Assembly (NCBI RefSeq): GCF_004299785.2
Contig: NZ_CP036246.2
Location: 1,922,001 to 1,986,000, forward strand
DNA from: Arcobacter porcinus
Lineage (GTDB): Bacteria > Campylobacterota > Campylobacteria > Campylobacterales > Arcobacteraceae
Length of the DNA: 64,000 bases
Direction: 5' to 3'
Numbering within the stretch: the stretch's first letter is position 1; the number at the start of each line of letters is the position of its first letter. Position numbers and translations under genes: made by a program. Of the stretch, positions 19,110 through 41,527 are shown one piece after another. The notes beneath the pieces are model-generated. The model worked only from the letters and a program-made list of their open reading frames with translations. It had not been told where the DNA came from and ran no database searches.

Positions 19110-19724
19110 GTGTTTACAGGACTTATAAGAGAGATGGCAAAAGTTGTTAGTTTCTCAAACAATATTTTAACCCTAAAAGCAAATTATTCTCCAAAAATCG
19201 GCGATTCTATTGCAGTAAATGGAGCTTGTTTAACTGTAATAAAAATTTCAAATGATACTTTTAGTGTTGAGTTATCTCCTGAAAGTACAAGCTTACTTGC
19301 TTTGGAAAACTATAAAAACTTTGTACATATAGAACCAGCTATGCAAATGGGTGATAGATTTGAAGGACATATTGTTCAAGGACATGTTGATTGTATTGGA
19401 ATTATTGAAAAGATAGAAACAAAAGGTAACTCAACAGATTTTTATATAAAAGTTCCAAATGAGTTTATAAAATATATGATAAACAAAGGAAGTGTTGCAA
19501 TTGATGGAATATCTTTAACTATAAATGAAGTGTTTAAAGACTCTTTTAGGCTTACAATTATTCCTCACACTATAAATAATACTCTTTTTAAAAACTATAA
19601 AATAAACTCAAGAGTAAATATAGAAACTGATATGTTTGCTAGATATATTTTTAATATGTTTAAGAAAAATGATAAAGATAATTTAACTTGGGAGAATGTA
19701 GATAGAATAATGGCTAATTACTAG
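19110..19724 (+). CDS. ribE: Riboflavin synthase alpha subunit
   Basis: Dismutates two 6,7-dimethyl-8-ribityllumazine molecules to riboflavin. Begins MFTGLI, typical of the family, and shows two lumazine-binding halves, with VNGACLTV and IDGISLTINE. 204 residues. Start is GTG, after AAAGGTTTTTTAA. No FMN riboswitch fits in the short upstream region. Confidence 0.95.
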   Translation: MFTGLIREMAKVVSFSNNILTLKANYSPKIGDSIAVNGACLTVIKISNDTFSVELSPESTSLLALENYKNFVHIEPAMQMGDRFEGHIVQGHVDCIGIIEKIETKGNSTDFYIKVPNEFIKYMINKGSVAIDGISLTINEVFKDSFRLTIIPHTINNTLFKNYKINSRVNIETDMFARYIFNMFKKNDKDNLTWENVDRIMANY

Positions 19725-19736
19725 CCATTATTTAAA
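19706..19736. terminator. Hairpin between convergent ribE and mgtE
   Basis: AATAATGGCTA and TAGCCATTATT form an 11-base stem with a five-base loop that includes the ribE stop. The T tracts are interrupted, so efficiency is uncertain. Confidence 0.6.
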
Positions 19737-19740
19737 TTTA

Positions 19741-21117
19741 TTAAGCTGGAATATCTAATATAGAAGTTGCTATTGAGAAAAATATCAATACCCCAACAGC
19801 ATCTGTTATTGAAGTAATAAGTGGCGAACTAGCTGATGCTGGGTCTAGTTTAAATTTACTTAATAAAAATGGTAAAGACATTCCAACAATACTTCCAAAC
19901 ATAACTATAAAAATCATTGACAAAGATACTACTAAAGCTATCTCATATCCACCTCTAAAAATCCCCACAAAAGATACAGCAAAAGCCATAGTTAATCCAA
20001 GCAAAGTTGCAATCATCAACTCTTTTCCTAGCATACCAGCCCAATCTTTTAAATTTATATCTCCTGTTGCCAAAGCCCTAACAGTTAATGTAGCAGATTG
20101 AGATCCTGCATTTCCTCCACTTCCAATAAGTAATGGTAAGAAAAATACAAGTGCAATATATGCTGAAATTGTATCTTCAAAATATGCTATTCCTGCACTT
20201 GAGAAAATATTTCCAAATACTAAAATCACAAGCCAATATATTCTTTTTTTATATAGTGTTGAAATTGCTGCATCTTTTATACTTGTTAAAACACCTGTAT
20301 TTCCATGTTTACTTACTTCAACACTTGTACCACTCATTTTTTGGAAATCTTCTTCAGCTTCTTCTATTGCAACATCTATAACGTCATCATAAGTGATTAT
20401 TCCCACAAGAATATTATTCTCATCTACAACAGGAGCAATAAGTAAATCATAATCTTGAATTACTTTAACACAAAATTCTACTGGATCACTAGCTTTTAAA
20501 GAGATAGGATTCTTTCTCATAAAATCTTCTATTAAACTATCTGGCTCTGCCATAATTAAAGACTTTAAAGACACACTTCCTACCAACTCTCTATTTTCAT
20601 TTATAACAAATGTTTCATAAATAGACTCTATATCTCCAGCAATCTTTCTTAGATATGAGATTGATTCCAATGCATTCATATTAGCTTTCAAAGTAGCATA
20701 ATTTGATGTCATAATTGAACCAATTACATTCTCTTCGTATGATGATAATTTTATTATGTCTTCTTGCTCTGCCTTAGTCAAAATAGGTAAAATTCTATCT
20801 TGTAATGTTTCTGACATTATGTTAAATAAGTCAGCTCTTTCATCGCTTGGCATCTTTTCAAAAAGCTCTTTTATCATTGTTCTATCCATAAAATCAAGGA
20901 TAGTTAATTGCATTTGCTCATCTAAATATCCAAATAGCTCTGAACTATTTTTAAGTGGCATTAATGATATGAAATTGAATACTTCTTGAGGCTTCATCTC
21001 TTCAAAAGCTTCTTTTAAATCTACTGGATATGTATTGTGTAAGATTTTTACAATCTCTTTTTTACTTCTATTTTCTATAACATTGTGAATGCTAGAAATT
21101 AACTCTTTTTTATTCAT
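19741..21117 (-). CDS. mgtE: Magnesium channel MgtE
   Basis: Mg2+-gated inner-membrane magnesium channel. Order: N-terminal helical superhelix domain (ERADLFNIMS, residues about 1-130), CBS pair (about 135-255), and five C-terminal helices including the pore-lining GSGGNAGSQSATLTVRALATGD-type segment. I start it at the ATG at 21117, preceded by GGGG seven bases upstream, giving 458 residues; an in-frame ATG at 21129 has no ribosome site. Its 5' region holds a probable leader ORF and long-range stem (see 21284-21355), suggesting regulation by magnesium. Confidence 0.93.
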   Translation of the reverse strand: MNKKELISSIHNVIENRSKKEIVKILHNTYPVDLKEAFEEMKPQEVFNFISLMPLKNSSELFGYLDEQMQLTILDFMDRTMIKELFEKMPSDERADLFNIMSETLQDRILPILTKAEQEDIIKLSSYEENVIGSIMTSNYATLKANMNALESISYLRKIAGDIESIYETFVINENRELVGSVSLKSLIMAEPDSLIEDFMRKNPISLKASDPVEFCVKVIQDYDLLIAPVVDENNILVGIITYDDVIDVAIEEAEEDFQKMSGTSVEVSKHGNTGVLTSIKDAAISTLYKKRIYWLVILVFGNIFSSAGIAYFEDTISAYIALVFFLPLLIGSGGNAGSQSATLTVRALATGDINLKDWAGMLGKELMIATLLGLTMAFAVSFVGIFRGGYEIALVVSLSMIFIVMFGSIVGMSLPFLLSKFKLDPASASSPLITSITDAVGVLIFFSIATSILDIPA

Positions 21118-21235
21118 ATTTTGCCCCATATATGTTTATATAATTTACAATAGTTAAGTATTATATTGATTACAATCTATAATTAGATTTTTAAGATTAT
21201 CATACAAAACTATCAACATTGGCTTAAACAATTTA

Positions 21236-21326
21236 CATGAAGTTTTAATGATTATAAGATTTTTTAAGGTTTATATTAAAAGTTTAAATACTCAAATTTA
21301 TATTAATCATAAAATAAAACTTCATG
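21236..21326 (-). promoter_or_regulatory. Interrupted inverted repeat in the mgtE leader
   Basis: On the minus strand CATGAAGTTTTA plus ATGATTA, separated by TTTT (21326-21304), is matched by TAATCAT directly followed by TAAAACTTCATG overlapping at the shared T (21254-21236): 12 and 7 base pairs with a four-base bulge and a 49-base loop. The 5' arm lies within the leader ORF from its codon 10 onward, so a translating ribosome would open it. A short partner of the 3' arm at 21199-21210 could form a competing stem. No T run follows, so this is not a plain intrinsic terminator. Confidence 0.6.
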
Positions 21327-21355
21327 AATCTACTCTGACTACTATCTGAATCCAT
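21284..21355 (-). CDS. Probable 23-residue leader peptide upstream of mgtE
   Basis: Short ORF of 23 codons with a strong Shine-Dalgarno, AGAGGAG five bases before ATG. The peptide begins MDSDSSQSRFMKF and ends NINLSI, with acidic residues at positions 2 and 4. The ORF lies in the 304 bases between mreC and mgtE, 166 bases before the mgtE start. Its 3' two thirds form one arm of the inverted repeat described separately. Enterobacterial mgtL is a leader ORF of similar size and acidic start (MEPDPTPLP) controlling a magnesium transporter; there is no homology beyond that theme. A function in magnesium sensing is inferred, not shown. Confidence 0.6.
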   Translation of the reverse strand: MDSDSSQSRFMKFYFMININLSI

Positions 21356-21370
21356 TTCCGCTCCTCTTAT

Positions 21371-21408
21371 GAAATATTTAATTTTGCCGTAGTTTAGAAA
21401 AATATTTC
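21371..21408 (-). promoter_or_regulatory. Hairpin just before the leader ORF ribosome site
   Basis: GAAATATTT and AAATATTTC are nine-base inverted repeats with a 21-base loop, ending two bases before the AAGAGGAG site. It may be part of a promoter or an mRNA hairpin. No terminator is visible between mreC and the leader, so readthrough from mreC is possible. Confidence 0.3.
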
Positions 21409-21433
21409 TTAATTTTTAATTAATAGGCTATTT

Positions 21434-40388: not shown

Positions 40389-40541
40389 ATGCAAACATTT
40401 ATGACTATTTTATTTATTCTTATTTCTGTAATAGCTATGTTTTTGACTCTTTTGGGGATTAAATATTTTTTACATATGACTGATTATAAAAATAGAAAGA
40501 AAGATGGAAGTGAAGATGATAAATTCAAGAAATTTGATTAA
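40389..40541 (+). CDS. Small single-pass membrane protein, 50 residues
   Basis: Starts MQTFMTILFILISVIAMF, one membrane helix to about residue 28, then a charged tail (YKNRKKDGSEDDKFKKFD). ACAAGGATTTTT gives a good ribosome site before the ATG. It lies 46 bases after the PLP lyase gene and may share its transcript. No known family; resembles other small inner-membrane proteins only in build. Confidence 0.7.
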   Translation: MQTFMTILFILISVIAMFLTLLGIKYFLHMTDYKNRKKDGSEDDKFKKFD

Positions 40542-40558: not shown

Positions 40559-41527
40559 TTATATCCACTTATTTCTTTTAAATAATAAAAATTGAAAAAC
40601 AACAACACAAACTAAAATAACACTAAAAATCAAAAAAGCATTTTCATTTGACGAACCAGGAATTCCACCTACATTTATTCCCAAAAGTCCTGTTAAAAAA
40701 GTAAGTGGTAAAAATGTTGCTGAAATAATTGCAAGCATATACATCTTTTTATTTATATCTTCACTAAGCCTATTTCTTAGCTCTTCTTGAATTAAAATTA
40801 CTTTATCTCTAATTGTATCAAGCTCTTCAATATGTCTTATTAGTTGATCATTTGTTTCTCTTATTTCAACTCTTTGATATTCATCTATCCAAGATATTTT
40901 CTCATTTGAAAGTTTAATTAATGCCTCTTTTTGAGGAGATAAATATCTTTTCAAAACAATAGATTCTCTTCTTATTTTTAATATCTCATTTCTAAATTCA
41001 AGGCTTTTTAAATCTATTATATTCTCTTCTAAATAGTCCGTTCTATCTTGTATTTGCTCAATAGTATCATCCATTCTATCAATCATTTTATATGTAAGCT
41101 CTACTAAGAATTGAGAAGAACTTTTAACTCCAATACCATGTTTAAGCTCATCAATAATCTCTTCAACGGATAAAATCATCTCTTTACTTGTAGATATAAT
41201 AAGATTTTCTGAAATATAAAGCCTAATTGATTTCATATCTTCTGGATTTGCATCTGCATCAAGATTTACACCTCTTAAAGATAGAAGTAAATTATCTTTT
41301 AAAACTATCATTCTAGGTCTTGTTTCATCTGCTAAAAGTGCATCAACAGCTACATCTTCTATTCCACTTCTATTTGATATCCAATTTATTGCATCGTTTT
41401 TTGTATAATCAAAATGTAGCCACAAAAGATTATCACTATTTTTATATTCACTAATCTCTTCAATTCTTATCTCTTTTGCAAAAGATTTTTTATCTAATAC
41501 AAATCCTCTAAATGATTCTATCTGCAT
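40559..41527 (-). CDS. CorA-family transporter, ZntB-like
   Basis: 322 residues: cytosolic alpha/beta domain, long helices (about 140-260), and two C-terminal membrane helices. The loop signature is GINVGGIPGS instead of the CorA GMN with acidic follow-up; E. coli ZntB has GVN and GGIPG. This suggests a ZntB-type proton-coupled zinc transporter more than a magnesium channel. It follows yaaA by three bases and is likely cotranscribed. Confidence 0.8.
   Translation of the reverse strand: MQIESFRGFVLDKKSFAKEIRIEEISEYKNSDNLLWLHFDYTKNDAINWISNRSGIEDVAVDALLADETRPRMIVLKDNLLLSLRGVNLDADANPEDMKSIRLYISENLIISTSKEMILSVEEIIDELKHGIGVKSSSQFLVELTYKMIDRMDDTIEQIQDRTDYLEENIIDLKSLEFRNEILKIRRESIVLKRYLSPQKEALIKLSNEKISWIDEYQRVEIRETNDQLIRHIEELDTIRDKVILIQEELRNRLSEDINKKMYMLAIISATFLPLTFLTGLLGINVGGIPGSSNENAFLIFSVILVCVVVFQFLLFKRNKWI

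Follow-up and report, generated by a model that had tools for sequence, protein, structure and literature searches.

A conserved leader ORF upstream of mgtE in Arcobacter porcinus and a predicted switch on mgtE translation

The mgtE locus and its leader ORF

We analysed a 64 kb stretch of Arcobacter porcinus DNA, hereafter the window. Its mgtE gene lies on the minus strand (19741..21117) and encodes a protein of 458 residues with MgtE_N, CBS and MgtE domains, by which it is a standard MgtE channel. This reading, from alignment and domain search, uses a corrected start at 21117 (MNKK), which is the most likely one because it is the sole ATG with a Shine-Dalgarno (SD) sequence and the sole start common to the four relatives. 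The longest possible start, at 21129, has no SD. An earlier note on this DNA had recognised the gap ahead of mgtE and given its length as 304 bases; with the start at 21117 it measures 316 bases.

The gap contains a short ORF on the minus strand (21355-21284), identified from sequence and alignment. It has 23 codons and a TAA stop and encodes the peptide MDSDSSQSRFMKFYFMININLSI, which has no match in Pfam. Its SD, AGAGGAG (21361..21367, minus strand), is located five bases ahead of the ATG in the context AGAGGAG-CGGAA-ATG, and reads AAAGGAG in three relatives. A 23-codon ORF with AGAGGAG at good spacing had been described before and is confirmed here; that description omitted the strand. Further upstream is an AT-rich palindrome, TTAATT-AAA-AATTAA (21409..21423, minus strand), possibly a regulator or promoter region. 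Directly 3' of mgtE, a hairpin (TAATGGCTAGTAATTAGCCATTA, 19706..19732, minus strand) is terminator-like in position and present in all four genomes that carry this type of mgtE.

Background rates for codons and ORFs were computed from the ORFs of the 64 kb window. An ATG ORF of 8-60 codons with an SD in front occurs just 29 times there, three times in intergenic sequence, and acidic residues occupy positions 2 and 4 in two of the 29. The leader ORF has CAG at codon 7 in all four species, a rare codon at 2.5 per 1000. The Ser codon AGT is not rare, at 22 per 1000. Elsewhere in the window, an SD-preceded ORF of 50 residues with one hydrophobic stretch (MQTFMTILFILISVIAMFLTLLGIKYFLHM...) at 40389-40541 on the plus strand adjoins a corA gene near 40574-41431 on the minus strand.

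Distribution and genomic linkage

An mgtE of the window type is found in 4 of 31 congeneric genomes: the window genome (G000), G026, G014 and G012. The MgtE proteins of the last three are 88-90% identical to the window copy. MgtE proteins from beyond the genus show an identity of about 30%, one of them 41%, and a contig search for closer relatives returned matches of 30-33% only. Since almost every congener has two CorA genes, the window-type mgtE is an extra channel.

The leader ORF with its SD, start and stop is present in every one of the four genomes, so that a loss in relatives, which would have spoken against it, is not seen. The peptide is identical in G000, G026 and G014, and carries two substitutions (S5G and N20I) in G012. 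Asp2 and Asp4 are kept in all four species. A search of 397 genomes sampled from the phylum recovered the peptide in four, all of one genus, and otherwise gave a partial hit at chance level (E 0.07), and the upstream regions of distant (about 30%) MgtE genes that were parsed contain no similar ORF. A leader common to Campylobacterota mgtE genes is ruled out by these counts. Comparison of the sequences indicates a leader system confined to a small clade. The earlier reading of the locus as a Mg2+ leader thus stands with respect to a conserved leader ORF of mgtE with D2 and D4 in all four species and no M-box, and falls with respect to the phylum-wide Mg2+ uORF that it had envisaged.

The four genomes have a common block, which consists of the AT-rich palindrome, the leader, mgtE and the hairpin directly after mgtE. 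The palindrome marks its 5' edge: in G014 and G012 the alignment shows conservation beginning there, with unrelated sequence further upstream. The hairpin at 19706..19732 closes the unit on the 3' side, where it overlaps with the 3' terminus of the convergent ribE. The unit is located between mreC and ribE in G000 and G026, and between ribE and mnmG in G014 and G012. The unit thus occupies two different gene positions, and the leader and mgtE have remained together over one relocation or more. In a search of plasmid and viral contigs the unit was absent; there was one match of 13% coverage, in an mgtE of an Acinetobacter plasmid.

Downstream of mgtE, G014 and G012 have 22-46 bases that match the ribE 3' end of G000, suggesting that the mreC-unit-ribE order is the older one. 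These matches lie at about 6216-6260 in L098 and 5272-5333 in L099, with ribE itself elsewhere, as if the tail had moved with the unit. From the hairpin overlap at 19706-19732, the last ribE residues in G000 and G026 may in turn have been supplied by the transferred unit. We do not claim two clean insertions: both positions fall in the neighbourhood from mreC to mnmG, where genes may have been rearranged locally. Between G000 and G026 (window 19741-21433 against L097), mreC is 95% identical in DNA and 99% in protein and the leader 96%, with mgtE at 88%. The low mgtE identity beside the close mreC and leader suggests that mgtE was swapped by recombination in one of these two genomes.

Conservation of the leader ORF

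The leader ORF varies less than its surroundings. The dS of mgtE is 0.48-0.60 in five pairs (0.49-0.60 between G000 and each relative) and 0.20 in the G014-G012 pair. Over the same comparisons with G000, the ORF shows 1, 1 and 3 differences per 72 bases. In the four sequences 3 of 72 columns vary in the ORF, compared to 48 of 230 (21%) for the remaining leader columns and 56 of 300 in early mgtE. The difference between the ORF and the rest of the leader is significant (p = 0.0005 by Fisher's test and p = 0.00025 by permutation, the latter becoming 0.011 when any stretch of the ORF's length is allowed). In codons 1-10, almost wholly outside the predicted helices described below, one of 30 columns varies (p = 0.02 when compared to the remaining leader).

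These values bear on whether the ORF is there by chance and looks alike simply because the mgtE units share a recent ancestor. In favour of chance, the unit is present in a scattered 4 of 31 congeners, it may have passed from one species to another, and the sequences number four. However, an mgtE dS of 0.48-0.60 beside so few changes in the ORF, and the variation in the leader around it, make a chance ORF the least probable of the explanations we considered.

The alignment check proposed in the earlier note gave the start, D2 and D4 in all four sequences, with the synonymous positions of the ORF likewise conserved. Because synonymous sites are conserved too, constraint on the peptide and constraint on the RNA are inseparable in four sequences. 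We conclude that the leader ORF is conserved, and that it is probably translated and belongs to mgtE.

A predicted ribosome-controlled fold over the mgtE SD

Folding and alignment point to three parts of the leader, all on the minus strand, that would form a switch. Element 1, an anti-anti-SD, lies inside the ORF (21305..21326) and consists of CATGAAGTTTTA (21326-21315) and ATGATT (21310-21305). Element 2 (21229..21253), a candidate anti-SD, is noncoding and almost invariant, and has two alternative partners, element 1 or the mgtE SD. Its core, ACTTCATGTA (21243-21234), pairs with the mgtE SD region (21123..21132), which element 2 covers in the OFF fold. Between element 2 and the SD is hairpin 3:4 (TGATAGTTttGTA ... 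TACttAACTATTG, 21148..21215), with 11 pairs, all invariant, which would draw element 2 and the SD together. The three-part switch predicted here is new.

The element 1:2 helix has 18 pairs (12 + 6), kept in all four sequences with one G-U change, and the pairing of element 2 with the SD spans 10 positions, with 95% of cells paired over the four sequences. Two-sided compensatory changes were not found in the four related sequences and most pairs are invariant, so the support for the helices comes from conservation and folding and not from covariation.

The two folds were compared with element 1 blocked or free. With element 1 blocked, the probability of the SD being paired in element 2 was 0.98, 0.81, 0.97 and 0.40-0.69 in the four species; with element 1 free it was 0.03-0.06. 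Folding with a ribosome footprint gave an open mgtE SD when there was no ribosome or when it stood at codons 1-5. In a scan of P-site positions, element 2 seldom contacted the SD with the P-site at codons 2-5 and lay over it at codons 7-16, in shares of about 0.97, 0.8, 0.97 and 0.4-0.76; in three species this sealed the SD. The mean change in SD accessibility across the four species was 0.32; alignments with permuted columns gave a mean of -0.01 (sd 0.04), and none of the 240 came up to the observed value. Of 200 dinucleotide shuffles per genome, the effect was reached by 1 for G000, 0 for G026, 0 for G014 and 25 for G012, where the response is weak. The effect disappeared when element 2 was masked, and held from 25 to 42 C. 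The switch hypothesis was formed on the same four sequences, the controls were designed afterwards, and folding was computed at equilibrium.

Several simpler properties do not distinguish this leader. The element 2:SD duplex by itself is not remarkable, since shuffled leaders gave an unexceptional fraction of 0.07-0.40. The leader as a whole is not unusually stable (z -0.20 against shuffles). A trp-type four-element logic, with 2:3 set against 1:2 and 3:4, is ruled out by a 2:3 pairing that never exceeds 0.03.

In silico, then, the leader has exclusive pairing over the SD and a fold set by ribosome position, as in a translation attenuator, weakly so in G012. A leader-ORF regulator of mgtE is well supported by this modelling, and the predicted fold suggests that its output is translational.

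The proposed switch would work as follows. With no ribosome on the ORF, or with one that exits within codons 1-5, elements 1 and 2 would pair, leaving the mgtE SD free and mgtE ON. Ribosomes on about codons 7-18 would cover element 1 and release element 2, the SD would be paired across hairpin 3:4, and mgtE would be OFF. The scan also showed that the element 1:2 helix can re-form after the ribosome passes about codon 20; hence the OFF state needs ribosomes that are closely spaced, frequent or pausing. A possible pause site is codon 7, the rare CAG conserved across the four species.

Other readings of the conserved noncoding sequence were weighed. A search of the mgtE leader region against Rfam, taken up to E = 5, brought up neither an M-box nor any other credible family, which rules out the M-box and other known RNA families and agrees with the earlier remark that no M-box is apparent. 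A structured RNA regulator of mgtE (an ion riboswitch, or a protein or sRNA site) with an incidental ORF would account for conservation at the nucleotide level, synonymous ORF positions included, and for an element 2 that is almost invariant yet noncoding. Unvalidated mgtE riboswitch candidates are also known elsewhere, in Thioalkalivibrio (PMC11109978). Against it, the ORF retains its SD, start, frame and stop, codons 1-10 are conserved outside the predicted helices, Rfam has no match, and global folding is no better than in shuffles. We regard such a regulator as improbable.

A sigma-70-like site, TTAATA-17-TATAAT (21279-21251, minus strand), is found between the leader ORF and element 2. 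As an mgtE promoter it would place the ORF outside the mgtE leader, and it matches at 10 of 12 positions in the window genome. However, its -10 hexamer is changed in the relatives (TATAAG, TATAAA and TATAAA), the AT-rich region has 8 such sites compared to 5.3 in shuffles, and both the conserved ORF and the element 1:2 pairing would be left unexplained. This promoter is a very improbable explanation. The gap upstream of mgtE contains no terminator-like site. A charged-tRNA attenuator of the LeuL/TrpL type was rejected on this ground, and its Ser codons would be unrelated to the target gene.

Discussion

Our analysis moderately favours a translational switch on mgtE controlled by the leader ORF, with Mg2+ as the likeliest signal, acting through ribosome loss at D2/D4. 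We infer that the ORF is translated, that ribosomes drop off at D2/D4 and that Mg2+ is sensed. In low Mg2+, ribosomes would fall off at Asp2-Ser-Asp4 much as they do at MgtL Glu2-Pro-Asp4, and mgtE would be ON. Such a drop-off would leave mgtE ON because D2 and D4 stand just ahead of the codons at which a ribosome is predicted to cause sealing of the SD.

That the signal is Mg2+ and the sensor a drop-off at acidic residues is plausible. MgtL ribosomes drop off on EPDP, and changes of Glu2 and Asp4 abolish mgtA output (PMC11282234). The sensor step is nevertheless the weakest link, since two acidic residues alone are stated to be insufficient in the MgtL study (PMC11282234) and prolines are absent here; by known rules, D-S-D without proline would be a weak destabiliser. 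The protein bL31 is present. In E. coli, bL31 counteracts ribosome drop-off on acidic leaders.

The same ribosome-position switch could have another sensor, with a pause or arrest further along the ORF (the CAG at codon 7, three AGT Ser codons, RFMKFYFM) shutting mgtE in response to tRNA charging, growth rate or another ion. A ribosome paused in the OFF range, codons 7-18, would have the required effect, CAG stands at codon 7 in all four species and is rare in the ORFs of the window, and conservation spans the whole peptide, beyond its acidic start. Leader-peptide attenuators of the amino-acid/charged-tRNA type have also been predicted in Campylobacterota (PMC3847290). Yet AGT is common, Ser, Gln and Arg have no obvious tie to a Mg2+ channel, and the acidic start would be left without a role. 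We consider a pause sensor unlikely, though worth keeping in mind.

The switch with loss at D2/D4 resembles known Mg2+ leaders in logic, and we do not claim membership in the mgtL or mgtQ class. In mgtL and corL, efficient leader translation represses the transporter and poor elongation activates it (PMC11552253). Like mgtL, which precedes mgtA in E. coli and Salmonella, the mgtE leader has a short SD-led ORF before a Mg2+ transporter, alternative RNA folds and acidic residues at positions 2 and 4 (E2-P-D4 in MgtL, D2-S-D4 here), and under our model its full translation would be repressive as well. By eye, this peptide has nothing in common with the published MgtL start but the interval between its two acidic residues. 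MgtL is proline-rich and acts by Rho-dependent termination on a P-type ATPase, whereas here there are no prolines, the SD is predicted to be hidden and the target is an MgtE channel.

Salmonella mgtQ, located before mgtB, is closer in output: control is at the level of translation with alternative stems near the RBS, and mgtB is translated only if the leader has its Asp2 and Glu5 (PMC8092293). It differs in having 8 codons and lying within an operon, and its sequence and element layout are unrelated to those of the mgtE leader. Translation of corL, before corA in E. coli and Salmonella, opposes expression of a Mg2+ channel (PMC11552253), but corL has a UUG start, is Rho-dependent and contains few acidic or proline residues. 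The M-box (ykoK), including the Mycobacterium M-box with uORFs, can precede mgtE and may combine uORFs with SD hiding (PMC12810186); the window leader has no M-box match. The mycobacterial M-box leaders, with their mgtE-type class, and the Thioalkalivibrio candidate are different devices from this switch.

In attenuators of the ermC type, the position of the ribosome on a leader ORF releases or captures an anti-SD. Our model for mgtE follows the same principle with the opposite sign: a stalled ribosome means ON in ermC, whereas a ribosome at about codons 7-18 is predicted to mean OFF here.

The literature searched contains no report of a leader ORF that regulates mgtE in Campylobacterota, and the leader peptides it describes for this phylum are of the amino-acid type (PMC3847290). 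The fullest form of our proposal is a convergent, proline-free Mg2+ sensor of the Arcobacteraceae, in which drop-off at Asp2-Ser-Asp4 would act on an MgtE-type channel through an SD switch and which would move as a self-contained unit with the channel gene; we put it forward tentatively, as a possibility more doubtful than the switch itself. If true, the sensing of Mg2+ through how stable a ribosome is on an acidic leader, known from enterobacterial transporters, would also apply to an MgtE channel of Campylobacterota, with a translational output and without prolines. It would help to define which acidic motifs are sufficient to destabilise the ribosome. Leader regulators outside amino-acid operons are rare in Campylobacterota; this would be one, compact and suited to direct reporter tests.
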